From: Halichondria panicea | Lineage: Eukaryota > Porifera > Demospongiae > Suberitida > Halichondriidae | NCBI RefSeq assembly: GCF_963675165.1 | Contig: NC_087391.1 | Location: forward strand, 4,762,646-4,826,645 | Length of the DNA stretch: 64,000 nt | Reading direction: 5' to 3' | The notes under the pieces: generated by a model | Databases searched by the model: none | Told to the model about the DNA's origin: nothing | What the model saw: the letters and a program-made list of their open reading frames with translations, nothing else | Position numbers and translations under genes: made by a program | Shown: positions 1 to 60,681 of the stretch, piece by piece | Numbering within the stretch: position 1 is the first letter of the stretch | Layout of the letters: the number at the start of each line of letters is the position of its first letter

Positions 1-271
1 AATCTTCCAAAATTTCTCTACACACGAAACATGGGCTCCTTGAGATCAACAGATTGATAGTGACTTTAAATTGATCTTGTGTTAAGTTCAGTGATTTGAT
101 GTAGTATTTTAATTCATAGATGAAAATCCTCTCAGCATGATATCCGTTACCACTTCTCGTATAAAATTCCTCCGTGTTCCCATCGATGGTTACTACACCA
201 AGTGCTACAGTTGTATGTTTATGAGATTCTTCATCGTACAAATGTGTATAAAATTGAACTATTTTTTCCAT
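1..271 (-). CDS. AID/APOBEC-like deaminase, family B (N-terminal part, cut by window edge)
   Basis: Reading the minus strand from an ATG at 271 gives 90 open codons running off the left edge. The ATG follows the same leader (a TTTCCCATTCC-like stretch, then AGTC/AGTT) that precedes the ATG of the other B genes. The catalytic core is visible: Y-H-A-E at about residues 48-51, then 32 residues after the Glu, then S-P-C-F-V-C and R-E-x-L-E-D. This is the HxE...PCxxC zinc-deaminase signature; the S-P-C context fits AID/APOBEC. Relative to other B genes it has about two extra residues before the SPC (LLISRS instead of LSKS). No stop or frameshift is seen, so it could be functional, but the second domain lies outside the window. 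Deamination of cytosine in DNA or RNA is inferred from the family. Confidence 0.75.
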   Translation of the reverse strand, partial: MEKIVQFYTHLYDEESHKHTTVALGVVTIDGNTEEFYTRSGNGYHAERIFIYELKYYIKSLNLTQDQFKVTINLLISRSPCFVCREILED

Positions 272-997
272 GACTCTCTTTTGGAATGGGAAACTTCTTT
301 TGAATTCAGAGTTTTTATAGTTTCATAGTTTTGATTTTGGGGTTTTCTTATCCATTGACATATCTTCCCACATGCTAGCTATCCAACCCATACAAATTAA
401 AGCCAAGATAATTTGACACTTGCATACATTCCACATTGTTAGCTTTAAAGCTAGCAATGTGGCTATATAATGTTTACCATGTCAGTCGATAATTATGATG
501 TTTATAACACACACTCGGCAAAAATGTCGACGTCTATTCTATGATCGAGTGTTGTTGGCCACACACACTTCCTGTCCCAGCTCCCTATACTGAGAGCACA
601 TCGTTGAACCCTGCACTGTAACTTCCCTCTGTGGGTGTGATACTGGGGAGTGGGGTGGACTGCCCTCGACCCATCTCTGTATGTGGGTGTACAGAAGAGA
701 ATAGTCAAGGAATTGGCTTCCAGAGGACATAATTGCATTCTGATTGTCTTTGGTACCTCCAACCCTTGTAAACTTCACTGTGGTTGGAGGTAACAAAGAA
801 GAGAGTAGATGATCAGAATGCAATTAAAGTCCTCGGAAGCTAACTAAGAACTTTTAATTAGCCCTAAATATCTTCCTCTTGTGTGTGTAATGTGCATGTG
901 TGGTGTTTGAATTGGAAAAATAATCACAAACAGTGTCACATTCATACACTGTGCTCACACGAGCTAGTATAGGGAGTACCATGGCATTGTGTGTATG
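272..997. other. Non-coding stretch with WDR75 intron-derived repeat
   Basis: I see no supported gene. Around 596-690 lies a GTGGGTGTGATACTGGGG / GTGGGGTGGACTGCCCTC block that recurs near 12945, 13405, 34908, 48230, 61280 and 61740. It is usually upstream of WDR75 exon g, so it looks like duplicated intron sequence. A short inverted pair around 700-840 (AATTGCATTCTGAT versus ATCAGAATGCAATT) is also present. Confidence 0.5.
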
Positions 998-1668
998 GCA
1001 ACCCTTTCAAGAGTGGAGACTATCGGTGAGCTAACAGTGCCACTGTAGTGTACACACATGGAGCTTTGGTGTGCTTGTAATGTTTGATTAGTCAGTGTTT
1101 CCCAAGAGTGTGTGTGATCCACGTTGGGTGCCATTAATCTAACCTTCACAGTACTGTCTCTTATTCAATCTCATGTGCAAGCTAGCAGCTACTTGTTTCA
1201 TGGAATGTAAGCTCATTATTTGTTCCTCTTGTGTGTCTATAGATGTATGGTGTTTGGTCATAAGAGCTCTTCCCAGTATCTTGTGACAGCCTCAGAGACT
1301 CACCTCCAAGTCTGGGACCTCCTCTCTTGCTCAGGTGAGCATAGAGTGTGGTGATACAGTATCACTAAGCTATGGTGTTATGTTTTAGCAGCTACGTTTA
1401 AGCTGTAAGTTCACTTTCTGTACATTTTCCGCAGCAAGTACTTACAGTTGAGCTTATACCAAAGAATAGAAGACCTTGTGAGCATAATCTACCAAGGTCA
1501 CATGTATGCATTCATTCTTAGACCAGCTGTTATTGTGACAGTGTGCCCTGCCGTTGTTATTGAGTTTCTGTGCTTTCTTATCCAGTGCTGTGGTGTGTGA
1601 AGACCAGAGTGTGCTCCATGGTATCTGATCCTCTGAGTCAACTCACAGCTGTGTTTGTGCCCTCAGGG
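998..1668 (+). pseudogene. WDR75-like exon remnants (3' end of exon g, exons h and i)
   Basis: Three pieces match the WDR75 copy at 24 kb. The tail of exon g is at 998-1025 before a GTGAGC donor. Exon h is 1243-1334, encoding the VFGHKSSSQYLVTAS...WDLLSCS blade, with an AG acceptor and GTGAGC donor. Exon i starts at 1586 (CVKTRVCSMVSDPL). Exon g has lost its 5' half, and exon i runs at 1668 into an unrelated kelch-like fragment, so this copy cannot encode a normal protein. It is plus strand like all WDR75 pieces here. Confidence 0.75.
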
Positions 1669-1870
1669 AATCCCCCTCCCAGAGAGTTGAGACCTCCACT
1701 CACTGAAGGGGAAAAGACATACCAATCAAGATGAGCAGCTCGGTACAGAGTGTTGTTATCGGTGACACGGTGTGTGGTGGTGGTGCAGTCAATGATCCAG
1801 CTGGCAGATGTACAGTGATGAAGCTCGAGCAAGATCGATGGACCAAACTCTCAGTACACTGCCAACCATG
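1669..1870 (+). pseudogene. Kelch-repeat-like fragment fused to WDR75 exon i
   Basis: Directly after the CCTCAGGGAA of WDR75 exon i, the sequence switches to a segment encoding PPPRELRPLLT, then SVVIGDTV, a glycine run, and VMKLEQDRWTKLS. Hydrophobic-GD-VY-xGGG followed by Lx-D-x-W-x-x-L is typical of one kelch blade. The upstream and downstream parts lie in different frames around the ATG at 1731, so it is a broken fragment. A sister copy at 48615-48825 has the cleaner ending LSEYTANH. The parent gene is not in the window. Confidence 0.5.
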
Positions 1871-2904
1871 TATGTTGTGTTATCTTGCTAGGAGTCCTGA
1901 CAAGTTTTTGTGGTGTTTGCATATGGTCTCTTAGCTAGTGATTTTGGCCTAGTCTCCAAGTTTCTTTCCTAACAAATTTCACCTCGAAAACGAGCTACTA
2001 ACGCACAAATTGAATGATCTCCCACTAACACATGTATACCTAATGGACCCCCCACTCTACATGTAGGTATGCTGAGAGGGTATTGAGGTAGTCACTAGCA
2101 TGCTTACGCTGTTGGGGACCTCTGCTTCACCACTGATGGTACGTAATCGCCCCTCATCCCTAGGCTGGGTTTTGGTTTTGTTTTCCAGTAATCAATAATA
2201 TATTATTCATCCCTCACCTACAGTAACATAATTATGTGCACGTGTGAGTATTTAGCTAATTTTTTTTTTGTCTCCTAGCGGGTATAATTATTTGAGGGTA
2301 TAAATTTTCGCGAAAATTCCTTTAGAAAGGTTTTCACGGATTTAGAATAGCAGCGTTTTGCAGCATGCATGCATGCGAGATTAAATTCGCGGTTATAAAT
2401 GTTTGCGGTACATGCTGAATCAGCAAAAACCACCAACATTTATACGCTCGAAATATACCCAGGTATCTAGTTGCTCACTTCCTTCTTTCATGCTCCCCCC
2501 CACAGGCACGTATCTGGTCAGTGGTGGTGAGGAGGGTGTACTCGTCCTCTGGCAGCTGGACACACACAAGAGAGAGTTTCGTCCTCGTCTAGGCTCACCT
2601 ATCACACACCTCGCTTGTAGCCCTGGTGACAAGTACTTCACTGTCGGTCTGCAAAGCAATGGTGAGCCCTCAGGGGATACCATAGTCCCCCATCCTTGTG
2701 GTGGGTTTGGTGTGAGTCACTGTCTAAAATCGTTGCTCAGAATATTCGATTTTCAGAGATTATGTTTGCTTCTACAGCACTCGTGCAAATGTATGTATGC
2801 CTCGGTGCGCATGCGCAAGCGAAGTATACGGTAGTGTGTTTGTGTCTGTGTGTGTCTATCTGTCTGTGTAGACTGCTACAGCTGCACAAGGATCAATAAA
2901 GTGA

Positions 2905-3130
2905 AAGTAAGAGTTTCTATAGGCTTCTAGTCATGTTTTCTTGGATTTTAATTCGTGGATTTGCAAAATAATGCTTCGTTCTAGAGTTATGCCTAGTTTT
3001 GCTTACTTGGAATGTCATTGCAGCCTTTTCAGAAGAGCACGTAGCCAAACTTTTTACCGAGTATTGCTACTCTACTTAGTAGTTAACTCTAGCTACAAGA
3101 GTGAGAAGAGAGCTTCAAGGCTCTGCTGAC
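2905..3130 (+). repeat. Dispersed repeat, also at about 39905-40060 and 52630-52790 (inverted)
   Basis: A segment with GGCTTCTAGTCATGTTTTC, TTCGTGGATTTGCAAA and TTCTAGAGTTATGCCTA reappears in reverse complement downstream of the A-deaminase relics at 39.9 and 52.6 kb. No protein is encoded. It lies in the intron between WDR75 exons b and c. Confidence 0.45.
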
Positions 3131-3496
3131 TTTCAGCCATTAATTTTATACTTGAACTTTTGGCATCGATCGTTTTTTAACAACAATCATGGTCGATTAT
3201 TACCCACTCTTTGAGTTTTCCTGGATTTTGCATGCAGTAAAATTAAAAATGTTCATCATGATAATTATAATCAATATGCATGTGCATGTATAAAAGCTAG
3301 CTTAGTAGCTTTATGTTATGTAGCTTTGGCACCTCCACCGAGGCATCAGCAGCACCTGTGGTGCTTTCATTTCTATAACGACTTTGTTTGTTTCACTGTA
3401 CAGTTGATCTATGTTTTGTACACTTTAGCTCATTATTTTGTCTACGTGTGATTGTATGTTTGGTTTAATAGCGTGCTTTCCCCTCGCTTGTTTAAA

Positions 3497-3706
3497 TACT
3501 GTATAGTGGGTAAGTTTCGTGTGGTAAAAAATTCGTTCAATTCGATAAACGGTGGTTTTCGTGATTCGTTTAGTCTCGTTGCCTGCACTGCATTCCTACG
3601 TGGTAAGCCACGCCTGCGTTAAAATTTTGTGGAGGTCAGCTTGCCCATGAAAATAACGAATATTTTACCCCACGAAAATTACCCGCTATACGTATACGGT
3701 ATACAA
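3497..3706. mobile_element. MITE-like element of the CGCTATACGGTAT-end family
   Basis: One end reads ATACTGTATAGTGGGTAA. The other reads TTACCCGCTATACGTATAC, its imperfect reverse complement. The interior of about 200 bp has CGAAAA/TTTTCG motifs and no ORF. It is a non-autonomous inverted-repeat element in the WDR75 intron b-c. Related ends occur at 10334, 19815, 32715, 45764 and 58506. Confidence 0.5.
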
Positions 3707-4217
3707 GTACTTGTAATAATAGCTTTGCTAACGAAGCAGCCCAGTTGAATCTCGAGTCTATTTTCCAGTGGTGCAAATAGTATCAGGACTGGACACTGAG
3801 GTGGAATGGACTATTGGAGGATTGAGGAGGTCCCATACCTAGACTGTAGACCAGAATGGAATCAATACTGGCCTAGTGATCTGTCCACGTTCCATGTCTA
3901 TAGTGACCAGCAGTACGCCCGGGTTCATCCAGTTCTACGACCTAATCAAGGAGTCAGTCACCCAACAAGTGAGTATATAAAGTTGCTAAGTTAGTGCTGA
4001 TAGCTGTAAAGTTGTAATGATCATAATTAAAAACTAAAAGTTCCTCACACACACACACACGCACGCACGCACACTCTAGTTGAATGTGACGGACCTGAAC
4101 TATGTGTCTCGGCCTGATGACACACCCCTCTCTCTGACCACAGTGGACCACACCTCTTTCTCTCCTAATGGGGACTGGCTAGCCACAGTAAGTTAATATA
4201 CAGTACCCATAAATAAA

Positions 4218-4340
4218 ACTTGACGAGTTTCAAGACTTGGTACTGGCAGTTCATCGCACACTGCTATTGGTTCTAGTGTAAAGTTGACTCCGCTGTCTTT
4301 AATATTACATTTCCACTGCCAATTTCCACTGCCAGCTTTC
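4218..4340 (-). pseudogene. Relic of single-domain (S) deaminase 3' end
   Basis: Minus-strand sequence here aligns with the C-terminal region of the S gene at 18950-19080 (GVNFTLEPIAVCDEL region), including TTGACGAGTTTCAA and TTCATCGCACACTGC. It is then scrambled by a short duplication of the TTTCCACTGCCA motif. The catalytic HAE and PCxxC parts are absent. It sits downstream of WDR75 exon d, as do complete S genes in the other units. Confidence 0.6.
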
Positions 4341-4518
4341 CTCTAACTCCGCTATTAGGGAGGTGTTTCATACTTGTCCATTGGACCCGTGGATTATCAC
4401 CATACTTGCAAGGATTATCTTAATTACTTACTCAGACATCCCAGGTTAATATACAGTGGTTCAGCCATATGTCGAGTATCCTATGCACCTAAATTAACTA
4501 GCCATTGGTTGAAACAAA

Positions 4519-4740
4519 AGTGCATAAAAGAGAGAGAGCGTGTAACTTCCGTCTGCTACAGTACGGGCAGAATCCAAAACCACTACTATAAATAGAACTA
4601 TGGTCACGTGGGACTACATTCCATGCACATGCAGCAGTGAGAGATTTCAATAATTGTTCTATTTATAGTAGTGGTTTTGGATTCTGCCGGTACTGTAGCA
4701 GATGCGTAAGTTACACGCTCTCTCTCTTTTATGCGCTCTT
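4519..4740. repeat. Foldback element with about 80-bp inverted arms
   Basis: The left arm (about 4519-4598) and right arm (4656-4740) are near-perfect reverse complements: GCATAAAAGAGAGAGAGCGT, CTGCTACAGTAC and CCACTACTATAAATAGAAC appear in both. The loop is about 57 bp. It has no coding capacity. It is probably a foldback or MITE insertion and would form a long hairpin if transcribed. Confidence 0.7.
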
Positions 4741-4995
4741 GGTTGAAACTATACATACACTCAGCTCTCTAACTCTGGTTTTTCTATGGAACTATCACTT
4801 AATTGCTGCCTGAATGTCGGCATGGTATAATTGCAAACAACATGCAGTGATTCGAAGTACATGTAGTATCATTACCCTGTCAGCTTGTGCAATTGTAATT
4901 GTCAAATGCCACAACAAATTTGGGGAAAAGTGCACATGTAATATATGTACACATGCAATTAAGGCATGTCTATGAACAAGAAAAGTCTATATTGT

Positions 4996-6447
4996 TTATG
5001 TATGTATATTGCGCAATTTAAAATGTTCTTGTACCATCTGGTGTATTTCGTGTTTTTCCAACACGAATTCTTCTTCCTGTGATGACTGGCTTTGTTCTTC
5101 CGACGACTCTTCCTCTGAGGAAGAGACTGATCGCTCGGACATCTCTGAACTAGTCTCACTCATGTGTTGCATCGTTTCTTGTGTAGATGGCAGCATACTT
5201 GCCTCGCCCTGAATTGTGTGAGAGCTTGTTTCTTCATCTGAGCTTGATGAATAATCTGGAGAGTGCTGAGGTGGTGGTGTAGGAGGATACGTTCTGGACT
5301 CTATTTCTCCCTTGAGAATATCGAATTCATTTATCAATATCATATAATGTTGTTCAACTATTTGACGCGTCAAGGGACCAAATCGAACATATAAGGGTTG
5401 TAAACTGACACGGATTGATTTGCTTTCTAAACATCTTATCCACTGGATGAAACTGTATCTTTCTTCGTCTACAGGGATACTGGCGATGTGTAGTATCACT
5501 TTGTTCTTTACTCCATCAAACCTCTTTTCTCCCAGGAACTCTGTAATCCTCTCTTGGCATTTGGTGGAGGGTACGTGTGCACATACCAGTACAAGACACT
5601 TTCTGATGCGTACCCACGACAACGGCATTTTGATTTTGCATATTTTTTTCTCTATTTGATGGTTATTTCCATTTTCACTCATCTTTAATGATTCTCTAAT
5701 CTCTGTTGGTCGTTGCTCACTCCTCGTCACAGCTGAGACTATAAGCTGGAGTAGTATCATTTGCTGGTCACTTTTGTCAATAAAATATTTCTGTTTGAAC
5801 GCTGCCGACAATCTGAAGTGTTTAAACAGCTTCTTCACGTGTGTAGTCCCGTTTTGAATGTTGTCAATATGTTGGTTAACTTCAGTGCCCCTTTGTTGCT
5901 CGTTCATACTACTCGCCCTTACATCAGTTTCTGAAATCACATTGATGGCACTCAAACTGACTGAAACTCCTCGCGCTTCGAGGTCCTTTATCCAGTAATC
6001 TAATTTTATTTCTGCTTCATCAGGTGTAGACTTCTCTAAATACAATCGTGCTATCTTTAAAGTGAAGTAAACATTAGGTACACCGCATGAAATGAAAAAC
6101 TCTTGCAAGTCTTCTCGACATTTGAAGCAAGGGCTATTACTTATCAGCATTGTGACGGATAGACGTTCTGGTGTGATTCTTCTAAGCCATCTTCTAAGCC
6201 ATCTTCTAGCATTTCGAATAAATGCTTGTTCTGCATGAAGTCCAGGACCAGATGTTTCTACAAATTTTGTTGTTGTAGGTCTATTCTGTACTGTCAGTTC
6301 TAATTCACACGCAAGTCCAGTTTTACCTCGTTTATCCCAGAAACACTTTATAAAGGCTGGATCAAAGCTGTCCATGTCTTCAAAATCTTTTAGCCTCAGG
6401 CTAGTGGTCAACTCATCGTGGTCTGTTGTTATATATCCTTCAGCCAT
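4996..6447 (-). CDS. Two-domain AID/APOBEC-like cytidine deaminase, family A (copy 1)
   Basis: Single open exon of 483 aa. I start at the ATG at 6447 (MAEGYITTDHDEL), shared by all A copies; upstream codons open from TTG only. CCTCACAG two bases before the ATG looks like a 3' splice site of a 5'UTR intron. Domain 1 is about residues 1-175: H71-A-E73, 32 residues, then P106-C107-x-x-C110, followed by FxLKIARLYL, matching the strand and helix after the zinc site in AID/APOBEC. Domain 2 is about 215-360. It has lost HxE and has P-S-T-K-C where PCxxC would be, so it is probably inactive. The tail (385-465) is proline- then Ser/Glu-rich with CK2-like SSSEEE. No signal peptide is visible. It is antisense to WDR75 between its exons d and f. 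It is likely a nucleic-acid cytosine deaminase; the substrate is unknown. Confidence 0.85.
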   Translation of the reverse strand: MAEGYITTDHDELTTSLRLKDFEDMDSFDPAFIKCFWDKRGKTGLACELELTVQNRPTTTKFVETSGPGLHAEQAFIRNARRWLRRWLRRITPERLSVTMLISNSPCFKCREDLQEFFISCGVPNVYFTLKIARLYLEKSTPDEAEIKLDYWIKDLEARGVSVSLSAINVISETDVRASSMNEQQRGTEVNQHIDNIQNGTTHVKKLFKHFRLSAAFKQKYFIDKSDQQMILLQLIVSAVTRSEQRPTEIRESLKMSENGNNHQIEKKICKIKMPLSWVRIRKCLVLVCAHVPSTKCQERITEFLGEKRFDGVKNKVILHIASIPVDEERYSFIQWIRCLESKSIRVSLQPLYVRFGPLTRQIVEQHYMILINEFDILKGEIESRTYPPTPPPQHSPDYSSSSDEETSSHTIQGEASMLPSTQETMQHMSETSSEMSERSVSSSEEESSEEQSQSSQEEEFVLEKHEIHQMVQEHFKLRNIHT

Positions 6448-7028
6448 TGCTGTGAGGTTATTGACATCAATTTTATTTACCGCTAAGAAGTCTCTCAATT
6501 ACATAATTACTCAGCATATTACATATTTGGTGTTGGCCTTTTAGTGCTGCTATGGTAACGTCCGTATTTAGAGCATTGGTCTTACTTCACTGTTGATTAT
6601 GCCTTAATTGGCATGTAACACTCATTTTAATACTATAGTTTGATACATACAATGGTGTACACTACGTACTATGTTTACGTAAGGTTCAACAGAATTGTTA
6701 TAAGACCCAGATTGTGCTCCTGTTATTGTCTTTTGCAGTGTGTGTGTGTGTGTGTGTGTGAAGTGGTATACTTTCTGTTTGTGGTCATATATTGATGATA
6801 CCAAGTATGTACGTATATAAACTGCTAAGCTCAGTTGTCTTTCAACTGGAACTTGTGTGTGTGTAGTCTAGTGGAGTAATATATAGTCTAGTAGTACAGT
6901 ATGTGATTAGTGAATGGTAGGTACCTTTCCAGCTACACTGTGAATACAATTGTCCACTTGTGCATGCCCTCATGCTATGTACCAGTGTATACATGTAGCC
7001 TTACTCTATATTTTATTGTCTCCCTCAG

Positions 7029-9768
7029 ATACACTCTGAACACTTGTGTGGAGCCACCTCACGATCGACCTGTCACCAGCATCACCTTCCAACCACGTCA
7101 CCATACCAACAAGACGTCCAATCAGATCCCTCTATTGGTCTCCACGAGTCTAGATGGCCACTTCAAGACGTGGGTCCTCCTAGGAGAGGAAGTGGGTGTG
7201 TCATGGTCGTGTCAGGCAGTGGGTTACTACCATGGTCTGGAGAGTGTGGGGGCGTACTTCAGTGAGGATGGGTCACTACTGGCTGTCAACTTCAAGACTG
7301 TGAGTGCATGTTAATATTGGTTGAGGTTGAGATTCCTAGAAATCATTCATTCTCCTTATTCAATCTAATTACAATCACAAACAGCGTCACATGCACACAC
7401 TGTGTTCACAACCTTGACAATAATTATTCCTGGGGTATACTGATAGCTGGCTGACCCACTTTTCGCTTTCTCTCCCCCTGGAAATTTTCTCTGGATGAAG
7501 ATCTAAAGCTACATGTATACCTATATGACTCGTGTGTGTATGCGGGACACACTGTTTGTGCTCATACAAGCTAGTATAGGGACTACCATACCTTGTATTT
7601 TGAAAGCTATAGGGCATTAGCTGTGACTTGTGTGTGTGTGGAACATACTGTTTGTGAGTCTCTCTCTATCCAATATGTTCAGTGCCTGACTCTGTGAGCT
7701 GAGGAAGACTCTCTGCAACCCTTTCAATAGTGGAGACTATCGGTGAGCTAACAGTGCCACTGTAGTGTACACACATGGAGCTTTGGTGTACTGTAATGTC
7801 TGATTAGTCAGTGTTTCCCAAGTGTGTGGAATAGCCTGTATGCTATCCAGATTTATGCAAAGTACTGTCAGTACTGCACGTACAAATGTTGAATACCTGA
7901 GGCTAGCTGCTACATTACTTGTTTCATGGAATGTAAGCTCGTTATTTGTTCCTCTCGTGTGTCTATATATAGGTGTATGGTGTTTGGTCATAAGAGCTCT
8001 TCCCAGTATCTCGTGACAGCCTCAGAGACTCACCTCCAAGTCTGGGACCTCCTCTCTTGCTCAGGTGAGCATGGAGTGTGGTGATACAGTATCACTATAA
8101 GCTATGGTGTTATGTTTTAGTAGCTACATTTAAGCTGTAAATACACTGTCCCTACATTTGCCAGCAAATGTTTACAGTTGAGCCTTTTTAGCCAAAGAAT
8201 AGAAGACCTTGTGAGCATAATCTACCAAGGTCACATGTATGCATTCATTCTTAGACCAGCTGTTATTGTGTGCTCTGTTGTTATTGAGTTTGTGTGCTTT
8301 CTTATCCAGTGCTGTGGTGTGTGAAGACCAGAGTGTGCTCCATGGTATCTGATCCTCTGAGTCAACTCACAGCTGTGTTTGTGCCCTCAGGGAATGAACC
8401 ACACATTGTGAGTGCCTGTGCATGTGAACATCTCATATCTCATACCATTGTTGTCTTATCTTGCTAGGAGTCCTGACAAGTTTTTTTGTGGTGCTTGTAT
8501 ATGGTCTCTAGCTCTGCCTTGTAACAAATGTGCTAGTGATCATGAATAGTCTCCAAGTCTCATGTGTTTTCTCACAAATCTCACCCATGGCCATTAGTTG
8601 ATATTGTATTGAAATGGGCTCCTCACTTCATAACACATGTGTACCTAATGGACCCCCCCCCCCCTATACACACACACACACACAGTGTACCTGATTGACC
8701 CCCCCCACACCCACACACACACAGTGTACCTGATTGACCCCCCACACCCACAAACACACAGTGTACCTGATTGACCCCCCCCCCATATACGCACACACAC
8801 ACAGTGTACCTGATTGACCCCCCTTCCCCCACTCCACTGGCCGTACATCACTCTGTGTGCTCGGGGAAAGTGCTGGGGGGCGTGTTCCTACCCCCTCAGT
8901 CAGGGGGTACCTCTACACTGTACTTCATGGACAAGGCACAGGTTAGTACACTACCAGTGCTCTTATAGGAAGATTGTCTATTAGGTAATCAGAACTATAG
9001 CTGTTATCCTTTATAGTGCCTCATGGTTTTTCCATTCCTTTGAGCCATCTGGTGTGCAGTAGACTGCCTAACTATTACTCCTACAAGTGTATATGAAATA
9101 ATTGTTATGCCGCTACGTACATTCATGTGGCTTTCTTACCTACAGTAGCTGACCTAATTCTCTCCAATGCATAAGCTGCTTGGTCCTTTCTTTCCCATAA
9201 AGTGTAATAATTAATTAATACAAACATGTATAGGATCTCCGCAGATGCATGTACTAACTGTGTGTGTGTGTGTGTGTGCAGGTGTTGTATGGCCTAGAGG
9301 AGGAAGGTAAAGAGAAGAGTGATGACTCTCGGCCGTTACTAGGGGACAATGTTCCCACATCAGAGAGGGAATTCTGGGATATCTTTGGAGGCAGTAAACT
9401 ATATAACAGAGGTCAGTATAGTATCACAAGTGTGTGACAATAGGCTTTGCTATGCAATCTAGTATTTTATAATGTGCTACTTTTGCTACAGGTTCTATTG
9501 AACATGTAATGTACACGTCCAAACCATGACTCTCTCTACTCAGTGCCCCTCCCCACGTCCTCCCCCCAATGCCCTCCCTCTGTCTCCCGTTCCTCCAGTC
9601 ACGTACATTAGCAGGGGTCTAAAGGTCATTATGGTCGAGGACAAAGGTCAGCCAGAAGTGGGTGTGGCCTCTAGTAAAGCTAGTAATGGGAGAAACTTGG
9701 AGGTCAAGAACTATATGATTGGCCTGGCTAGTACTAGTAGAGCATTTCCGAGTAATGTGATATTTTGA
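7029..9768 (+). pseudogene. WDR75-like exons f-l (copy 1, broken)
   Basis: Exon f 7029-7299 is open (NTCVEPPHDRPVTSITF to CFSEDGSLLAVNFKT region). Exon g 7683-7742 lost 17 bp between two CTGTG repeats and reads TGA at 7695-7697. Exon h 7973-8064 is open. Exon i 8310-8407 lacks about 7 bp at its end relative to the 24-kb copy, shifting phase. Exon j is 8805-8941 and exon k 9282-9411. Exon l 9492-9768 has an early in-frame TGA and has lost most of the acidic segment. Splice borders remain. A normal WDR75 C-terminus cannot be made. An AATAAA at about 10212 could be an old poly(A) signal. Confidence 0.8.
8641..8804 (+). repeat. Minisatellite made of splice acceptor plus exon-j start
   Basis: About four units of (CA)n-CAG followed by TGTACCTGATTGACCCC lie just upstream of exon j. 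Each unit copies the exon's own acceptor and first codons (VYLIDPP). C-tract and CA-tract lengths vary among units. Equivalent arrays lie at 44080, 56806 and 34495. Confidence 0.8.
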
Positions 9769-47732: not shown

Positions 47733-48531
47733 GACTTTCTTTAGGAATGGGAAACTTCTTGTAAGCTCGGAGTTTTATGTCTGCAAAAAAGGTCGTGGTT
47801 TTGGTTTTGCTTATCCATCTTCCCATGACGACTATACCAAACCATACAAAAAGTGAAATGAGCACTGATCAAAAGGTGAAGGTCGGCATGTCAGTTACCA
47901 AGGATCTGAACAGTAGATAATAATTATAATAATAAGATTCGTGCAGTGGTGTTTCCAGTATTTCCCTGAAATTGTACCCTTTGTTTGTGGCGTACGGTAA
48001 CCCGGACTTTTGTAGGATTTTACACCTACAATAATTATGCTGATTATCAGTTCCATGAAGTATTAATTAGTTTCGTACAACGCTTTTAAATTACATGATT
48101 GATTCAAAAGTGAAAACAATACATACAAAATTATCAAGGTCAGTTGGCGAATGTTATTGTTGGCCACACCCACTTCTTGTCCATCTAACTCCCTACTGAG
48201 TGTGTGCAAACTGGAGAGCACATTGTTGAACCCTGCACTGCCCTCGGACCGTGTGTGAGGAGGGGGGGGGGGGGAAGAATCACAAACGTACAGTGTCACA
48301 TTTATGCACGTGCTTACACAAGCTAGGGAATACCGCACCTTGTAATTTGAAAGCTAGCTATGTCTTGTGTGTGTATATTAAGGGACATATGTTTATGCAT
48401 GATTAAAGATTATTTCTCTCAATCCCTCCCGATGCAATGTGCAGTACTTAACTGCAACAATAATTATCATTCTTAGACCAGCTGTTATTGTGTGCTCTGT
48501 TGTTATTGAGTTTGTGTGCTTTCTTATCCAG
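47733..48531. other. Stretch without a supported gene
   Basis: It contains the B-gene leader, an AT-rich segment and, near 48190-48400, the WDR75 intron repeat seen at about 560-700 (TTGTTGAACCCTGCACTG, then a G-run). No ORF with recognisable features. Confidence 0.4.
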
Positions 48532-50638: not shown

Positions 50639-50652
50639 GTCAGGCTCACTTC

Positions 50653-51444
50653 TTATTGGTGCTGTATATTCATCCATTTAGTGTGTCTTAGTGAAGAGTT
50701 AACACTGTTAACGTTACGTGCAATAGCTAAGTCCGCCTCTTCTCGTTTAAGTTTTTTGATTAGTGTCTTACTCTCACACACAGAGCACGATGATTTCTCC
50801 CGGATTCGCTTGAGTGGTTTAGCTCTACCAGTTTTTGAACTCCCTCTTTGTTGGCATGATTTGCACTTAACTTGATGAATTTTATGATCTGATAGTTCAT
50901 CACATACTGATATTGCTTCTAGTGTAAAATTGACTCCACTGTCTTTTATGGCCTGAATCCAAGCCATCAGGTTTTGTCTAACTTTGGGATCTTTAAGGCG
51001 TTTCTTTGGTGCTGCTGTTAGTGTCGATTCTAAATCATGATAAAGGTAGCTGATACGAAGCTTGTAGTTGACAGTAAGCTTAAGCTTCTCTCTCCAGTCT
51101 AGGAGCATCTTCAGTATTACAGACTGACATTCCAAACAAGGACTGCTGGTAGCCATTGTGGTGAGGCTTATTTCTGTTTGTTCAGTGAGATCCTTCATCA
51201 TCTTATCAAGCCATTCTGATGCTTCCCGTACAACGGCGATCTCGGCATGTTCATGATCTTTTCCTGTCTCTGATCTGAATCGATAGCTCTCTCCACTTTG
51301 TTCCAGTGTCACATGACTTAAAGCTACTATTTTTGAGCTGTCTTGGTTGTGAACTCTATTGAAACGATCTTTGTCTTGCCGTTTGAGTAGGTCACTGACA
51401 TCACCTAATGTTTCTGGAGCTGTATTGTTGGGAAAGTTTGCCAA
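50653..51444 (-). CDS. Single-domain AID/APOBEC-like deaminase (S) with C-terminal Cys pairs
   Basis: Open frame of 263 aa. Core: H66-A-E68, then S-S-P102-C103-L-E-C106, then a long helix and LTVNYKLRISYLYHD, which fits the RLY/NLY position of AID/APOBEC. The C-terminal part is Lys/Arg-rich with C194-x2-C197, 22 residues, C220-x2-C223, a possible zinc ribbon that could bind nucleic acid. There is no ATG: the frame opens with TTG at 51444 and a TAA lies just upstream, so a separate 5' coding exon is likely. The last codon is about 15 bp from the donor of WDR75 exon e on the other strand. It is the only S copy with both core and tail open. Confidence 0.78.
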   Translation of the reverse strand: MANFPNNTAPETLGDVSDLLKRQDKDRFNRVHNQDSSKIVALSHVTLEQSGESYRFRSETGKDHEHAEIAVVREASEWLDKMMKDLTEQTEISLTTMATSSPCLECQSVILKMLLDWREKLKLTVNYKLRISYLYHDLESTLTAAPKKRLKDPKVRQNLMAWIQAIKDSGVNFTLEAISVCDELSDHKIHQVKCKSCQQRGSSKTGRAKPLKRIREKSSCSVCESKTLIKKLKREEADLAIARNVNSVNSSLRHTKWMNIQHQ

Positions 51445-51811
51445 TAACTTTTAGTAGTTTTCCGCAATTATCTATAATGATGTTTGCTAATGCTTGTACA
51501 TGTACTACAACCAACCACATTCTCATGTACATACATGTATAGTAACTTACAGTTTGTAGCCGCCATTGAGTAGAATACTATACTGCTCTCTAAGTCTATT
51601 AGTGGTTTGTCTATGGGACTATTGCCACGTAAATATGGGCATCACGTGATTACAGTGATTCATTACTATTATATTATTGCCTTGTCAGCTTATTCAAGTG
51701 TGTGATTGTCAAAAGTCTTGGATAAAAAGACATGTCTATGTAATGCTGCATATGCTTAAAAACTTTTGCAATTCTTATACTGGCCGTCGTGTTTGTCTAA
51801 CACTTTTTTTC

Positions 51812-52620
51812 TTCCGACACTTGGAGGAGAGGGACTGCTCGGACATCTCTGAATTAGTCTCTCTTATATCTTGCATCGTTTCTTGCATAGATGGCCCAAC
51901 TGGTGACATACTTGCCTCGTCCAGTATTGTGTTAAAAGCGCGTTTCTTCGTCTGAGTTTGATGAATAAATCTGAGATGGTGATATGGGAGGATACAGTTA
52001 GCTAGGACTCGATTTCCTTTCGAGTCTCGAACATATTTTTCAATGTTACATATCGTTCAATTATTTGTCCTGACAAGGATGGTAATGAAGCATAGAAAGG
52101 TTGTAGACAGACGTGGATTAAATTTCCTCTTAGACGCTCTATCCACTCGATGAAATTGCGTCTTTCTTCTTGTACAGGAACTTTGGTGATATGTAGTACT
52201 AGAATATTTTGCAGGTAAAAAACCTTTGCGAATGAGCTAAATCAGCAGAAAATGTGACCCTATGCGATCTAACTATTGCGTTCTGGCAAGGATCGTGTGT
52301 ATAATTTAGGTTTTGTGATTTTATTGCGAATTGATCAACCCTCGCAAAGTTCGCATATGTTTGATGCTCGCAAAACATTCTAGTAATACGGTATCAGGTA
52401 CCAGTTTGTTCTTCACTCTCTGTTGACATTTGGTGGAGGGCACGTGTGCACATGCATACTAGTACGAGATATTTTCTGACAGATTCATGACAAGGGAATT
52501 TAATTTTACCTATTGCCTCCTCAAACAGCTGATCTCTTAGGTATAATCTTTCTCTCCGTTTATCTTTACTTGATCTCTGTTGGTCGAGCTGAGACTATAA
52601 GCTGGAGTATAGTATATCAT
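51812..52620 (-). pseudogene. Relic of a family A deaminase interrupted by a MITE (second copy)
   Basis: Duplicate of 39093-39895. It has Ser/Glu tail and second-domain sequence with stops and no catalytic domain. The MITE-like insert is at about 52200-52392. Confidence 0.7.
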
Positions 52621-53154
52621 CATCACTGTAAGTAAAATTAGCCATAACTGGAGAACAAAGCTTTAGTTTGTAAATCCACGAATCAAAATATCCAAGAGAA
52701 CGTGGCTAGAAGCCTATAAGAAGCTGTTAGTTTTTGTCGTATTGCAACCGTTATCGCTGGAATACACACACACACGCACATACAGTCAGCTTTACCATAT
52801 CCCTCGTGTGGATACGCCTCAAGGCATAAATATAGCATTTTTGCCGAAAAAGGAATCTTTAGAGGTGCTATTTAATTCTAGCACTATAACTGATGTCTGA
52901 CTTGGCTTGGGGTGATACCACAGGATTTTACCAACAAGCAGACCAATTAAAGTTATGACCTAAACATTATTCATCTCAAACAATGTGTACAATACTACAA
53001 GATTAACTAATCAATGAAGAAGAAATTTATTATCTTGTAGGGAACAATGGGTAATAAGTGGGGGATAGTGGGAGTCAGCTTGTGCAATCGTGTATTGTCT
53101 GGTATAAAAAATCTTGGATTAAAGTATACAATAAGACCTGTCTATGGTATAATG

Positions 53155-54621
53155 CTATGGTATTGGTATAAATGTGTTGTTTTCGTCCAACATTAATAAC
53201 TCGTCTTGTGATGACTGGCTTTGTTCTTCCGACGCTTGTTCCTCTGAGCAGAAAGACATCTCTAAACTAGCTGAATTAGTCTCGCTCATGTCTATCGTTT
53301 CTTGCATAGATGGCCCAACTGGCGACATGCTTGCCTCGTCCTGAAATGTGTAAGAGCTCGTTTCTTCATCTGAACGCGATGAAGAATCTGTAGTGTGCTG
53401 AGATGGTGGTGTAGGAGGATACATTCTGGATTCCATTTCTCCCTTGAGAATATCGAATTCATTTATCAATATCATATAATGTTGTTCAACTATTTGACGC
53501 GACAAGGAACCAAATGGAACATAGAAAGGTTGTAAACTCACACGGATTGATCTGCTTTCTAAATATATTATCCACTGAATAAAACTGTCTCTTTCTTCGT
53601 CTACAGGGATACTGGCGATGTGTAGTATCAGTTTGTTTTGCACTCCGTCAATCCTTTTTTCTTCCATGAACTCTGTAATCCCCTCTTGGCATTCGGTGGA
53701 GGGCACGTGTGCACATACCAGGACAAGACACTTTCTGACGTGTACCCATGACAATGGCATTTTGATTGTGCGTATCTCTTTCTCTATTTGATGGTTATCT
53801 CCATTTTCGTTCATCCTTAATGATTCTCTAATCCCTGTTGGTCGTTGCTCACTCCTCGTCACAGCTGAGACTATGAGCTGGAGTAGTATCATTTGGTGGT
53901 CATTTTCGTCTATAAAATATTTCTGTTTGAAGTCTGGCGACAATCTGAAGTGTTTAATCAGATTAGTCACGTGTGTAGTCCCGTTTTGAATGTTGCCAAT
54001 TTGTCGGTTAACCCTTGCGTCTTCATCTATTCTAGTGGTCTTTTGTTGCTCGTTCATACTCACCGTTGTTGTTAGCGCATTAGTTTCTGAAATCACATTA
54101 ATGGCACTCAAACAGACTGAAACTCCTCGCACTTCAAGGTCCTTTATCCAGTAATCTAATTTTCTTTCTGCTTCATCAGGTGTAGACTTTTCTAAATACA
54201 ATCGTGCTATCCTTAAAGTGAAGTAAACATTAGGTACACCGCATGAAATGAAAAACTCTTGCAAATCTTCTCGACATTTGAAGCAAGGGCTATTACTTAT
54301 CAGCATTGTGACAGATAGACATTCTGGTGTGATTCGTATGTTTTGTCTAAGCCATCTTCTATTTTGTCTAAGCCATCTTCTAGCGTTTCGAATAAACACT
54401 TGTTCTGCATGAAGTTCAGGACCAGATGTTTCTACAAATGTTGTTGTTGTAGGTGTACTCTGTACTGTCAGTTCTAATTCACACGCAAGTCCAGTTTTAC
54501 CTCGTTTATCCCAGAAACACTTTATAAAGGCTGGATCAAAGCTGTCCATGTCTTCAAAATCTTTTAGCCTCAGGCTAGTGGTCAACTCATCGTGGTCTGT
54601 TGTTATATATCCTTCAGCCAT
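53155..54621 (-). CDS. Two-domain AID/APOBEC-like cytidine deaminase, family A (copy 4)
   Basis: Open 488-aa frame from the ATG at 54621. I see no amino-acid difference from the gene at 40428-41894. Key residues are H71, E73, C113 and C116, with the doubled RRWLRQN between. The second domain is degenerate. The TTG-opened extension upstream of the ATG is not counted as coding because the copy at 22603 lacks it and a splice-acceptor-like CCTCACAG precedes the ATG. Confidence 0.87.
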   Translation of the reverse strand: MAEGYITTDHDELTTSLRLKDFEDMDSFDPAFIKCFWDKRGKTGLACELELTVQSTPTTTTFVETSGPELHAEQVFIRNARRWLRQNRRWLRQNIRITPECLSVTMLISNSPCFKCREDLQEFFISCGVPNVYFTLRIARLYLEKSTPDEAERKLDYWIKDLEVRGVSVCLSAINVISETNALTTTVSMNEQQKTTRIDEDARVNRQIGNIQNGTTHVTNLIKHFRLSPDFKQKYFIDENDHQMILLQLIVSAVTRSEQRPTGIRESLRMNENGDNHQIEKEIRTIKMPLSWVHVRKCLVLVCAHVPSTECQEGITEFMEEKRIDGVQNKLILHIASIPVDEERDSFIQWIIYLESRSIRVSLQPFYVPFGSLSRQIVEQHYMILINEFDILKGEMESRMYPPTPPSQHTTDSSSRSDEETSSYTFQDEASMSPVGPSMQETIDMSETNSASLEMSFCSEEQASEEQSQSSQDELLMLDENNTFIPIP

Positions 54622-55192
54622 TGCTGTGAGGTTATTGACATCAATTTTATTTACCGCTAAGAAGTCTCTCAATTACATAATTACTCAGCATATTACATAT
54701 TTGGTGTTGGCCTTTTAGTGCTGCTATGGTAACGTCCGTATTTAGAGCATTGGTCTTACTTCACTGTTGATTATGCCTTAATTGGCATGTAACACTCATT
54801 TTAATACTATAGTTTGATACATACAATGGTGTACAGTACGTACTATGTTTACGTAAGGTTCAACAGAATTGTTATAAGACCCAGATTGTGCTCCTGTTAT
54901 TGTCTTTTGCAGTGTGTGTGTGTGTGTGAAGTGGTATACTTTCTGTTTGTGGTCATATATTGATGATACCAAGTATGTATGTAAACTGCTAAGCTCAGTT
55001 GTCTTTCAACTGGAACTTGTGTGTGTGTAGTCTAGTGGAGTAATATATAGTCTAGTAGTACAGTATGTGATTAGTGAATGGTAGGTACCTTTCCAGCTAC
55101 ACTGTGAATACAATTGTCCACTTGTGCATGCCCTCATGCTATGTACCAGTGTATACATGTAGCCTTACTCTATATTTTATTGTCTCCCTCAG

Positions 55193-57940
55193 ATACACTC
55201 TGAACACTTGTGTGGAGCCACCTCACGATCGACCTGTCACCAGCATCACCTTCTAACCACGTCACCATACCAACAAGACGTCCAATCAGATCCCTCTATT
55301 GGTCTTACGAGTCTAGATGGCCACTTCAAGACGTGGGTCCTCCTAGGAGAGGAAGTGGGTGTGTCATGGTCGTGTCAGGCAGTGGGTTACTACCATGGTC
55401 TGGAGAGTGTGGGGGCGTGCTTCAGTGAGGATGGGTCACTACTGGCTGTCAACTTCAAGACTGTGAGTGCATGTTAATATTGGTTGAGGTTGAGATTCCT
55501 AGAAATCATTCATTCTCCTTATTCAATCTAATTACAATCACAAACAGCGTCACATGCACACACTGTGTTCACAACCTTGACAATAATTATTCCTGGGGTA
55601 TACTGATAGCTGGCTGACCCACTTTTCGCTTTCTCTCCCCCTGGAAATTTTCTCTGGATGAAGATCTAAAGCTACATGTATACCTATATGACTCGTGTGT
55701 GTATGCGGGACACACTGTTTGTGCTCATACAAGCTAGTATAGGGACTACCGTACCTTGTATTTTGAAAGCTATAGGGCATTAGCTATGACTTGTGTGTGT
55801 GTGGAACATACTGTTTGTGAGTCTCTCTCTATCCAATATGTTCAGTGCCTGACTCTGTGAGCTGAGGAATACTCTCTGCAACCCTTTCAAGAGTGGAGAC
55901 TATCGGTGAGCTAACAGTGCCACTGTAGTGTACACACATGGAGCTTTGGTGTACTGTAATGTCTGATTAGTCAGTGTTTCCCAAGTGTGTGGAATAGCCT
56001 GTATGCTATCCAGATTTATGCAAAGTACTGTCAGTACTGCACGTACAAATGTTGAATACCTGAGGCTAGCTGCTACATTACTTGTTTCATGGAATGTAAG
56101 CTCATTATTTGTTCCTCTTGTGTGTCTATATAGGTGTATGGTGTTTGGTCATAAGAGCTCTTCCCAGTATCTCGTGACAGCCTCAGAGACTCACCTCCAA
56201 GTCTGGGACCTCCTCTCTTGCTCAGGTGAGCATGGAGTGTGGTGATACAGTATCACTATAAGCTATGGTGTTATGTTTTAGTAGCTACATTTAAGCTGTA
56301 AATACACTGTCCCTACATTTGCCAGCAAATGTTTACAGTTGAGCCTTTTTAGCCAAAGAATAGAAGACCTTGTGAGCATAATCTACCAAGGTCACATGTA
56401 TGCATTCATTCTTAGACCAGCTGTTATTGTGTGCTCTGTTGTTATTGAGTTTGTGTGCTTTAATTCTTATCCAGTGCTGTGGTGTGTGAAGACCAGAGTG
56501 TGCTCCATGGTATCTGATCCTCTGAGTCAACTCACAGCTGTGTTTGTGCCCTCAGGGAATGACCCACACATTGTGAGTGCCTGTGCATGTGAACATCTCA
56601 TACCTCATACCATTGTTGTCTTATCTTGCTAGGAGTCCTGACAAGTTTTTTTGTGGTGTTTGTATATGGTCTCTAGCTCTGCCTTGTAACAAATGTGCTA
56701 GTGATCATGGAATAGTCTCCAAGTCTCATGTGTTTTCTCACAAATCTCACCCATGGCCATTAGTTGATATTGTATTGAAATGGGCTCCTCACTTCATAAC
56801 ACATGTGTACCTAATGGACCCCCCCCCCCCCCCCTATACACACACACACACACAGTGTACCTGATTGACCCCCCCCACACCCACACACACACACAGTGTA
56901 CCTGATTGACCCCCCACACCCACAAACACACAGTGTACCTGATTGACCCCCCCCCCATATACACACACACACACAGTGTACCTGATTGACCCCTCTTCCC
57001 CCACTCCACTGGCCGTACATCACTCTGTGTGCTCGGGGAAAGTGCTGGGGGGCGTGTTCCTACCCCCTCAGTCAGGGGGTACCTCTACACTGTACTTCAT
57101 GGACAAGGCACAGGTTAGTACACTACCAGTGCTCTTATAGGAAGATTGTCTATTAGGTAATCAGAACTATAGCTGTTATCCTTTATAGTGCCTCATGGTT
57201 TTTCCATTCCTTTGAGCCATCTGGTGTGCAGTAGACTGCCTAACTATTACTCCTACAAGTGTATATAAAATAATTGTTATGCCGCTACGTACATTCATGT
57301 GGCTTTCTTACCTACAGTAGCTGACCTAATTCTCTCCAATGCATAAGCTGCTTGGTCCTTTCTTTCCCATAAAGTGTAATAATTAATTAATACAAACATG
57401 TATAGGATCTCCGCAGATGCATGTACTAACTGTGTGTGTGTGTGTGTGTGCAGGTGTTGTATGGCCTAGAGGAGGAAGGTAAAGAGAAGAGTGATGACTC
57501 TCGGCCGTTACTAGGGGACAATGTTCCCACATCAGAGAGGGCATTCTGGGATATCTTTGGAGGCAGTAAACTATATAACAGAGGTCAGTATAGTATCACA
57601 AGTGTGTGACAATAGGCTTTGCTATGCAATCTAGTATTTTATAATGTGCTACTTTTGCTACAGGTTCTATTGAACATGTAATGTACACGTCCAAACCATG
57701 ACTCTCTCTACTCAGTGCCCCTCCCCACGTCCTCCCCCCAATGCCCTCCCTCTGTCTCCCGTTCCTCCAGTCACGTACATTAGCAGGGGTCTAAAGGTCA
57801 TTATGGTCGAGGACAAAGGTCAGCCAGAAGTGGGTGTGGCCTCTAGTAAAGCTAGTAATGGGAGAAACTTGGAGGTCAAGAACTATATGATTGGCCCGGC
57901 TAGTACTAGTAGAGCATTTCCGAGTAATGTGATATTTTGA
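55193..57940 (+). pseudogene. WDR75-like exons f-l (unit at 55 kb, broken)
   Basis: Exon f 55193-55462 has TAA at 55254-55256 (CAA in other copies) and a lost base at GGTCTTACGAG. Exon g 55846-55905 has the 17-bp loss. Exons: h 56134-56225, i 56475-56572, j 56976-57113, k 57454-57583 (with the ancestral AFWD) and l 57664-57940 with the early stop. Confidence 0.8.
56806..56975 (+). repeat. Acceptor/exon-j minisatellite (third array)
   Basis: Units of (CA)n-CAG-TGTACCTGATTGACCCC as at 8641, with tract lengths differing from both other arrays. Confidence 0.8.
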
Positions 57941-58505: not shown

Positions 58506-58710
58506 ACTGTATAGCTGGTTATTTTCGAGGCACGAAATGTTCGAGGTTTTCGAAGATTGACCCAGAAACACAAAAATTTGGTACCTCGAAAATTGGTTTA
58601 CATGTAGTGGTCATTTGAACCGCTATCCTCGAAAATAAAATGTTCGAAAATGTTTTGTTTGGGCAATCCGCGAAAATTTAGTGCCCTGAAAATAACCCGC
58701 TATACGGTAT
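58506..58710. mobile_element. MITE, third orthologous copy
   Basis: Same inverted ends and position as 10334-10539 and 45764-45968. Confidence 0.7.
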
Positions 58711-59244
58711 AATGTAGCTTGCAATGTACTGGCTGGTAAACACTTTATGCACTGATAACTTTCGGAATGGAGGAGATCGCTGGGGGTCGGGTTGGTTAAT
58801 GTATATTCAAAATAGGCGGAGAGACACATAAATGTTGCCTTCAGTCTCTAATGACCGTGCACACCAGCTAGAAGTTTACATAGAAAATTATCTATGCCAG
58901 CTCAGCAAAAAAGTGGTGATCGTGTCCAACGTGCTCTGCGCTTGCGTATTGCATGTTGGTTCTGACCGCTTGCATGACGAGTCATTTATTTTAGCACTCT
59001 AAAAACACACCATAATTATTACATTCATGCTATAATTATAATTATATGCTAAATCAGGATTGTTTGGTTTGGAGGTGGTCCAACTTCTTCTCCTGTTCTT
59101 TAAATATTCTCTAAGATAGTTCGTTATTAATCTGACCGGCATTCTTTATCGCCTCCTTATATCTATATAATGCATGTTCCTTCGTACCTTAGCATCCTGA
59201 AATGTTCAGCTATATATAGTATGACTGTACGTTTTAATATGGTG

Positions 59245-60681
59245 TCACAATGACAGTTCCTTTAAGCTGTTTACAGTGCTCAGCCATACTTCATCATTAA
59301 TTAGTTGGACATTTTTTCGTACCTCTAAATCTAATTCTTGTCTTTGTCTCTTAGCATCCTCCCACTGTTGTCTCTTCTCTGGTGAAGCATTCTGTTCGCA
59401 ATTAACTTGGCCTAGTTCCTCTGTTACATTGATTGCCTGGAGTTCTACTATTAGTCCTTCTCGGTGACATTTCAATAGCCAGTCGACAGTAGTCTTTTCA
59501 TAAATAATGTTAGCCACACGTAATATGAGTCTTGGCTTAACCACATCATGAGGAATACGAGTGATATTTGCTAAACAGTCTCTGCATGGCAAGTGCGTCA
59601 CAGCTAATACAATAGTCTTACTCAATATACTCCAACTTTGCGGTTTTTTATGTAGATCTATACGTGATAATGTATCACAACATCCTCCATCACCATGCGC
59701 TTCGATTGGTCCGAAAATTTTTTCTTTACTCCTACCTACTGTATTTACAGCAATTATTTGCACTTGTGCCACTGCCACATACGCAGCTATTGATGATTGA
59801 CTACTTTTGTAGAATGTTCGCTTTTCTCTAGCTTCCAGTGTTTCTTTCACGTCCGTCAAATTTGTAAAGAGCCTCCTAGTATTCACTGGTCTTGGAGCAA
59901 TAGCTCGTAGTTGATCAACTGTGGTCACTATAGTATCTATGCTCGTATCTTTGTCTCTTCTCTTTCCTTGTATTTTTTCCCACTCATCATCACTAACTCC
60001 TTGAGGTCTGTAATGAGGAATTTCAGTGACAACCTTAATGGGCTGAATAAGCGTATGCACTATATTTTCGTTTAAATGAAAAAGCCAAAATACCAAATCG
60101 TCGATATTTTGTTTTCTACCTCCTCCATCTCCGAAGTACAGATTTGCTATGCGGAGTGTAAATGAAACTGTTGCTCCTTTTTTTATTAAAGACTCGAGGA
60201 AATCTTCCAAATCTTCTCTACACATGAAGCATGGGCTCTTTGAGAGATTGATAGTGATTGCAATATTGTCTCCTTGTTGTATCTGTCCCATGAGTAAAAC
60301 ATTAGCTTCTCTGATGAATAAAGTCTCAGCATGGGTTCCTCGACCGTCACTCACTGTTGGGTTAGCATGAGTCATAACTCCATTGATGACAACAACACTA
60401 AATGCTATAGTTGATAGATCATGATATGACATCCCCCAGAATATTTTCTGGAATTGCAATGCCAAAAGTCCTAGTTCTAGAGGTACCGGTGCAGCCATGA
60501 CTTTCTTTTCTCTTTTAGTGACCAAAGTCTCATCTTGACCGTTACTCGCTGTTGTGATTGAATAAGTCTTAAAGTTATTGATGACAAGAACACTAGATGC
60601 TCCAGTTGATTGCCCCCCTAATTGCACTCCTCTCGGTCTTCTCCAGAATGCTTTCTGATATAGTTCAATTAGAAAATTCAT
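59245..60681 (-). CDS. Two-domain AID/APOBEC-like deaminase, family B, with extra N-terminal half-domain
   Basis: Open 478-aa frame from the ATG at 60681 (MNFLIELYQKAFW), chosen because it follows the TTTCTAAAGAAAGTC leader common to B genes. An acceptor-like CCTTTTGCAG lies at 60731-60740. Residues 1-60 repeat the start of a deaminase domain (YQKAFW, VLVINN, ASNG..ETL) without HA. A second start-like VMAAPVPLELG, FQKIFWG, VVVING then leads to H117-A-E119, 30 residues, P150-C151-F-M-C154 and FTLRIANLYF. Domain 2 keeps LPCRDC and LRLILRVANI but has HGDGGCC instead of HxE. It is probably active through domain 1. It is the open counterpart of the stopped gene at 11049-12344. Confidence 0.85.
   Translation of the reverse strand: MNFLIELYQKAFWRRPRGVQLGGQSTGASSVLVINNFKTYSITTASNGQDETLVTKREKKVMAAPVPLELGLLALQFQKIFWGMSYHDLSTIAFSVVVINGVMTHANPTVSDGRGTHAETLFIREANVLLMGQIQQGDNIAITINLSKSPCFMCREDLEDFLESLIKKGATVSFTLRIANLYFGDGGGRKQNIDDLVFWLFHLNENIVHTLIQPIKVVTEIPHYRPQGVSDDEWEKIQGKRRDKDTSIDTIVTTVDQLRAIAPRPVNTRRLFTNLTDVKETLEAREKRTFYKSSQSSIAAYVAVAQVQIIAVNTVGRSKEKIFGPIEAHGDGGCCDTLSRIDLHKKPQSWSILSKTIVLAVTHLPCRDCLANITRIPHDVVKPRLILRVANIIYEKTTVDWLLKCHREGLIVELQAINVTEELGQVNCEQNASPEKRQQWEDAKRQRQELDLEVRKNVQLINDEVWLSTVNSLKELSL

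Follow-up and report, generated by a model that had tools for sequence, protein, structure and literature searches.

A cluster of AID/APOBEC-like deaminase genes among partial WDR75 copies in the sponge Halichondria panicea

How does a family of deaminase genes come to crowd a single locus of a sponge genome, and what could its products be for? We analysed a 64,000-nucleotide (nt) stretch of the Halichondria panicea genome (the window, C15:4762646-4826645, where C15 is contig NC_087391.1) and searched the genome around it (131.5 Mb, 39 contigs). Using the window's own deaminase proteins, of types S, A and B, tblastn found 15 deaminase-like places in the window, complete, broken or relic and all on the minus strand, which bears out an earlier, sequence-only reading that had counted at least twelve copies on one strand. 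The cluster extends beyond the window on both sides and is bigger than that reading had claimed: with the window proteins and a divergent gene, D1, as queries and relics counted, it comprises 27 places over 138 kb (C15:4724215-4861968), again all on the minus strand. Between the deaminases lie repeated pieces of WDR75 (UTP17), a WD40 protein of ribosome biogenesis. We think it rather probable that the deaminase genes form a birth-and-death cluster whose products are intracellular AID/APOBEC-like cytosine deaminases, and that the cluster was amplified with these WDR75 pieces and probably serves as a defence mutator.

Family and architecture of the deaminases

What are these proteins? AID/APOBEC models of Pfam scored above their curated cut-offs in nine of the ten window open reading frames (ORFs) scanned, with best E values of 2e-6 to 1.5e-12; the tenth, a C-terminal half at 46466, gave only a weak cytidine-deaminase match (E 0.15). 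When an alignment of 21 proteins was compared with Pfam at E 0.01, SNAD4 was matched in 21 of 21 cases and NAD1, APOBEC_N, APOBEC2, APOBEC3 and others in 20 of 21. Used as a sequence profile against PDB, again at E 0.01, the same alignment gave 39 matches, every one of which carries an APOBEC or AID name (fusions and 'single-stranded DNA cytosine deaminase' included), with APOBEC3G as the best. The motif HAE...SPCxxC...(R/K)IA(R/N)LY is present, and its H, A, E, P, C and C are invariant in all nine aligned proteins. The sequence-only reading had placed the copies in the AID/APOBEC branch of the deaminase superfamily from this motif; profile searches and motif conservation support that placement, and the copies appear nearest to SNAD4 and NAD1.

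Are the proteins secreted, as the name SNAD4 (secreted novel AID/APOBEC-like deaminase 4, Pfam PF18750) would imply? Judged by hydropathy from inferred start codons, none of eight gene starts in the cluster has a signal-peptide-like stretch: the maximal 12-residue hydropathy within the first 40 residues was -0.25 to 2.02, against 3.38 in a relative on contig C13. By this measure the cluster proteins are not secreted. The SNAD4 profile fits, but the label 'secreted' should not, on present sequence grounds, be carried over to them.

Proteins of types S and A are two-domain, those of B and D1 single-domain. In 17 of 17 aligned sequences, H-A-E and S-P-C-x-x-C are retained in the N-terminal domain. 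The two-domain structure is read from profile-profile alignment (hhalign), which shows homology between the C-terminal and N-terminal domains in both A (96.6%, E 5.5e-10) and S (87.7%, E 3.4e-6), with S against A at 97.0%. In A, this second domain retains PCxxC and has CC at the expected HAE site (a pairing made by eye; the profile alignment begins after that site); in S it reads PSxxC, without HxE. Judged by these residues, the second domain of S and A is catalytically degenerate. The N-terminal domain would most likely deaminate C to U in foreign single-stranded DNA or RNA, and the dead C-terminal domain may bind nucleic acid or partners, like the second domain of double-domain APOBEC3. B genes appear by eye to start in a short separate exon, where B1 is without ATG.

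Copies are named here by type (S, A, B, D) and order. Seven open two-domain frames occur in the whole cluster (S3, S5, S6, A2, A3, A5 and A7), five of them wholly inside the window (4996, 30560, 40428, 53155 and 59245). The sequence-only reading had also counted five, one of them wrongly chosen: 50653 is single-domain, and the fifth gene is 53155. The gene at the window edge (1-322), which it read as a partial B gene, groups with type A in the tree (support 84, long branch), although the letters of that reading may differ from ours. S5 and S6 show 0 differences over 1518 nt inside 11-kb segments that are only 95.9% identical, which speaks for recent duplication or conversion. S8 stands alone at the right end of the cluster. 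The copies in the window are the following (aa, amino acids).

1-322, minus strand: A3, N-terminal part of a two-domain deaminase; the 419-aa open frame runs on to C15:4761708, left of the window; A group in the tree
4247-4315, minus strand: B-type relic (tblastn, 23 aa, 78% identity)
4996-6498, minus strand: S3, two-domain, open; likely start ATG at 6447 (MAEGY...); the unnamed relative P0002 is 97.5% identical
11082-12431, minus strand: A4, one internal stop (ORFs 11049-12086 and 12087-12431)
18923-19508, minus strand: B5, single-domain, frameshifted (tblastn and frames)
20785-22636, minus strand: S4, two-domain, broken near the N terminus; the long ORF 20785-22413 retains HAE and SPCxxC
30560-32161, minus strand: A5, two-domain, open; 533-aa frame with an acidic repeat between the domains and two SNAD4 stretches
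38054-38746, minus strand: B6, single-domain; frame diverges from B7 past the deaminase domain
39106-39499, minus strand: relic of an S-type C-terminal domain (tblastn)
40428-41945, minus strand: S5, two-domain, open; likely start ATG at 41894; identical to S6
46466-47774, minus strand: A6, frameshifted between its two domains (ORFs 46466-47269 and 47187-47774)
50653-51450, minus strand: B7, single-domain, open; start probably in a short upstream exon (by eye)
51820-52226, minus strand: relic of an S-type C-terminal domain (tblastn)
53155-54672, minus strand: S6, two-domain, open; identical to S5
59245-60765, minus strand: A7, two-domain, open; 506-aa frame

Profile searches of the genome found at least 23 places with NAD1 (19 in the C15 cluster, four on C13) and at least 23 with SNAD4 (20 and three). 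The C13 places belong to a second cluster of NAD1/SNAD4-like single-domain deaminase ORFs (C13:3447363-3456778, plus strand) with four profile matches; a fifth, weaker ORF there has DAE in place of HAE. Three of the C13 ORFs have a hydrophobic start (seen by eye, computed for one), and these deaminase-like enzymes are perhaps membrane-anchored members of the AID/APOBEC-like group. D1 encodes a divergent single-domain deaminase of 258 aa with a Lys-rich tail (C15:4836490-4837266, minus strand) and occupies the usual site of an A gene.

The WDR75 setting and its exon copies

What surrounds the deaminases? Plus-strand ORFs between them match the two propeller families of WDR75 in Pfam. First-propeller matches are split by introns and mostly fall under the model's cut-off; the second-propeller exon occurs at 11 places in the cluster, and elsewhere in the genome gives one weak match (C15:11114). 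A complete WDR75 gene lies left of the window (C15:4718530-4729196). In our hand-made gene model it has 19 exons (numbered 1-18, the fourth being split in two), 819 codons without a stop and introns that are all GT-AG, and its product shares 33.7% identity with human WDR75 over 784 aa (E 2.7e-127). Exons 1-6 occur only once, and exons 7-18 each have 4 to 22 further full or partial copies. Antisense to them, B genes lie just past exon 11 and S genes just ahead of exon 12, so that B and S share one intron (intron 11); A genes and D1 are found in the gap that separates the last exon of a unit from the first exon of the unit after it, i.e., behind exon 18. In B1, B2 and B8, a 9-nt antisense overlap with the 3' end of exon 11 takes in the last codons and the stop. 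Four partial copies lie in the window.

2496-9764, plus strand: WDR75 exons 8-10 then 12-18 (exon 12 at 7014-7310), with indels in exons 15 and 18; S3 and a B relic antisense between the halves; from Pfam propellers and the exon map, with up to 15 nt of flank included at the ends
17081-26484, plus strand: WDR75 exons 7-18 (exon 12 at 23261-23558), with a 2-nt insertion in exon 8 and a 6-nt deletion in exon 9; B5 and S4 antisense in intron 11
36366-45194, plus strand: WDR75 exons 7-18 (exon 12 at 42449-42745), with indels in exons 9, 10, 15 and 18; B6 and S5 antisense in intron 11
49045-57936, plus strand: WDR75 exons 7-18 (exon 12 at 55178-55473), with indels in exons 8, 9, 10, 12, 15 and 18; B7 and S6 antisense in intron 11

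How might the deaminases have been multiplied? They sit antisense in WDR75 intron 11 (B and S) and behind exon 18 (A). Tandem copies of WDR75, comprising its 3' two-thirds, would have undergone unequal exchange and so multiplied the deaminases along with their surroundings, copies being born, some kept and many lost. A long (TG)n/(CA)n tract runs at about 34890-35170 of the window, and the unit introns hold more CA/TG-rich stretches. Such tracts are possible sites of unequal exchange.

The WDR75 exon copies are homogenised on the plus strand across window positions 2496-57936 and C15:4722535-4868299. Between units, exons 12-15 have a mean synonymous divergence (dS) of 0.034 and a nonsynonymous divergence (dN) of 0.013 against an intron divergence of 0.134, with dS below the intron value in 51 of 55 pairs; in exons 8-11 the values are 0.091 and 0.019 against 0.238, and dS is the lower in 13 of 15 pairs. 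Divergence rises within 10-40 nt of the exon edges. Shared synonymous variants stand at 0.17-0.19 times their intron frequency, i.e., they are 5-6 fold rarer, and singletons at 0.49 times (exons 12-15) or 1.00 times (exons 8-11), one near-identical row being left out of these counts. Since the exons receive new mutations at between half and the full intron rate but lack the old ones, exon-sized gene conversion is a better fit than constraint acting at each base. The same deficit of shared synonymous variants rules out protein-level selection as the sole source of exon conservation.

Do the copies nevertheless matter as protein-coding sequence? Amino-acid changes are scarce among exon singletons, at 0.65 of the neutral level when all exons are taken together (p 0.006), and exons 8-11 carry 12 changes per 400 nonsynonymous sites against 23 per 126 synonymous sites; taken by itself, exon 18 looks neutral. 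Since one complete gene adjoins partial copies and deaminases, we considered a diversifying cassette array of the lamprey variable lymphocyte receptor (VLR) or chicken immunoglobulin type, and this is ruled out by the shortage of amino-acid changes in the copies. That shortage would suit another account, in which WDR75 is the driver, its 3' part having been amplified or kept for itself (as extra or alternatively spliced C-terminal parts) with the deaminases as passengers; splice sites are also kept in many copies (exon 14: AG in 20 of 21, GT in 20 of 21). However, exons 1-6 are never repeated, frameshifting indels are common in exons 8, 9, 10, 15, 16 and 18, exon 18 singletons show the neutral pattern just mentioned, splice sites are poorer elsewhere (exon 15: AG in 19 of 22, GT in 17 of 22), deaminase frames remain open in the same units, and repeated overwriting from the working gene could also explain the scarcity of changes. 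We therefore regard a WDR75-driven locus as unlikely.

What keeps the exon copies alike? With many copies frameshifted, overwriting by the complete WDR75 gene is favoured over use of the copies; RNA- or complementary DNA (cDNA)-templated conversion, or selection, are alternative causes on which we are undecided. A functional lock can also be envisaged, in which antisense deaminase transcription through WDR75 would damp WDR75 and ribosome production while mutators are made, and the exon copies would be kept alike as mRNA-matched sequence or as mutual overwriting templates, but we hold it to be highly improbable.

Selection on the deaminases and their possible use

Are the deaminase frames maintained? 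We computed omega (dN/dS) by the Nei-Gojobori method (NG86), dropping pairs with fewer than 60 usable codons, which removed three of the 21 S pairs and one of the 21 A pairs. In the 18 S pairs omega was 0.28-0.92, with p<0.05 in 14, and each of the remaining four includes the broken fragment S1a; among S3, S4 and S5 it was 0.45-0.52 (p 8.5e-4 to 1.1e-7; S3 gave 0.47 with S4 and 0.52 with S5). Thirteen of the 15 B pairs had omega 0.30-0.65 at p<0.05, the exceptions being B2-B5a (0.76) and the near-identical B6-B7. Purifying selection is thus supported for S and B. Within S, the dead domain (omega 0.41-0.52) and the active domain (0.36-0.48) are about equally constrained. Type A behaves otherwise: omega was 0.59-1.23 over 20 pairs and 0.72-1.23 in the six pairs of open copies, with 0.75-1.85 in the dead domain and 0.60-1.12 in the active core. 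A neutral simulation (substitutions only, lineage divergence set from the NG86 results) gave a probability of 0 to 0.0085 that the frame stays open for each of A2, A3, A5, A7, S3, S4 and S5, and of 0 to 0.002 per lineage for the open A copies. Thus, with omega near 1 and such low probabilities, the A copies are fast-changing yet kept open.

Could the cluster simply be dying, its open frames being young duplicates without function? Open two-domain frames remain at 7 of 27 places, many others are interrupted or relics, and S5 and S6, being identical, are recent or converted. However, the other open frames compared differ at dS 0.16-0.57, a span over which the simulation leaves little chance of a neutral frame staying open, and S and B are under purifying selection. 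A dying cluster is therefore, in our judgement, very unlikely.

How old are the three types? A large protein set contains homologues of S (5), A (at least 17 with the best 8000 candidates scored, one being the window's own) and B (18), all unnamed. Among genome and viral contigs searched for relatives together with their context, no locus was confirmed. In a quick tree of first domains, a branch sets each of the types A, B and S apart (support 84, 98 and 98; long branches flagged), and of the distant homologues P0005 is placed next to S and P0022 next to A. Because the types separate and these distant homologues join S and A, the split into types predates the unit duplications seen today. An ENA contig of 126,308 bp encodes proteins identical to A1 and A2 and two B proteins; another, of 537,604 bp, encodes S5 at 99.8%, A7 at 92.7%, a further A protein whose identity to any copy here is no higher than 68%, and two B proteins. 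If this longer contig is from the same species, as it apparently is, copies vary between haplotypes or individuals.

What would such enzymes be used for? Their family and the fast evolution of type A make an innate DNA/RNA mutator system plausible, and its natural task would be to restrict viruses and mobile elements. Alternatively, since the AID/APOBEC family includes RNA editors, e.g., APOBEC1, the working deaminases could edit or regulate the host's own transcripts, and the purifying selection on S and B would agree with this. Host editing has against it the many copies, the differences in copies from contig to contig and the omega values near 1 of the open A genes, all more usual for defence genes, and we consider it quite unlikely.

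Several observations weigh against a defence mutator cluster. Many copies are broken, only 3 of 20 A pairs lie below omega 1 at p<0.05, and the omega near 1 of type A may reflect relaxed constraint. The residue before SPC is K, N or Y, giving S(K/N/Y)SPC in most aligned proteins against SWSPC in APOBEC3G; the Trp of SWSPC is a feature of vertebrate AID/APOBECs and not of the whole branch. Finally, no self-mutation footprint of the enzymes was found, as cluster introns show no C-to-T context or strand bias (small counts); the commonest intron changes are the usual C>T (24/171) and G>A (20/164).

If the locus is a birth-and-death cluster of defence mutators, an immune-type gene family can multiply by nesting in an essential gene whose downstream part is copied along. 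The locus offers a natural contrast between deaminase frames that are open and diverging and host-gene exon copies that are broken yet alike, and its open genes are test proteins for the use of AID/APOBEC enzymes as mutators by early-branching animals.

Two further features were seen outside the cluster. Exons matching the gamete fusogen HAP2/GCS1 lie to its right (C15:4873113-4873961), and a piece of mitochondrial COX1 inserted in the nuclear genome lies at C1:5280527-5280718; it was translated with TGA as Trp and appears to resemble demosponge COX1. This reading of TGA, the spliced WDR75 gene and the SNAD4 matches all agree with an invertebrate source, as the sequence-only reading had assumed.

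Comparison with known systems

How does the cluster compare with what has been described? AID/APOBEC-like genes of sponges are already known, and one account gives SNAD4 as known only from sponges (PMC11004436). The cluster proteins resemble SNAD4 as their best or near-best Pfam family, in their sponge host and in their zinc-deaminase core; they differ in having no evident signal peptide, in the two-domain form of S and A, and in the nesting of their genes in WDR75. The likeness to NAD1 (novel AID/APOBEC clade 1, PF18778), seen at the 19 places on C15 and four on C13, is one of profile match, and the NAD1 model overlaps SNAD4 and APOBEC_N. Nested genes are common in some sponges, 2432 being counted in the Aphrocallistes vastus study (PMC10282587). 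Unlike WDR75/UTP17 as otherwise known, exons 7-18 are here tandemly repeated with antisense nested deaminases. A limited search of the open-licence literature found no report of this nested arrangement or of the active-plus-dead two-domain form, and within that search the nesting in a partial WDR75 array appears new.

Double-domain APOBEC3 proteins such as APOBEC3G likewise have two homologous AID/APOBEC domains in one chain, and tandem expansion and fast evolution are features of APOBEC3 as well. In double-domain APOBEC3 the zinc motif is kept in both domains, and in APOBEC3G the active domain is the C-terminal one. In contrast, the cluster proteins have the full motif in the N-terminal domain, and the zinc motif is not kept in the second domain, which has lost the Glu in A and also a zinc Cys in S. 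The plan of one active and one dead domain is apparently an independent parallel to double-domain APOBEC3.

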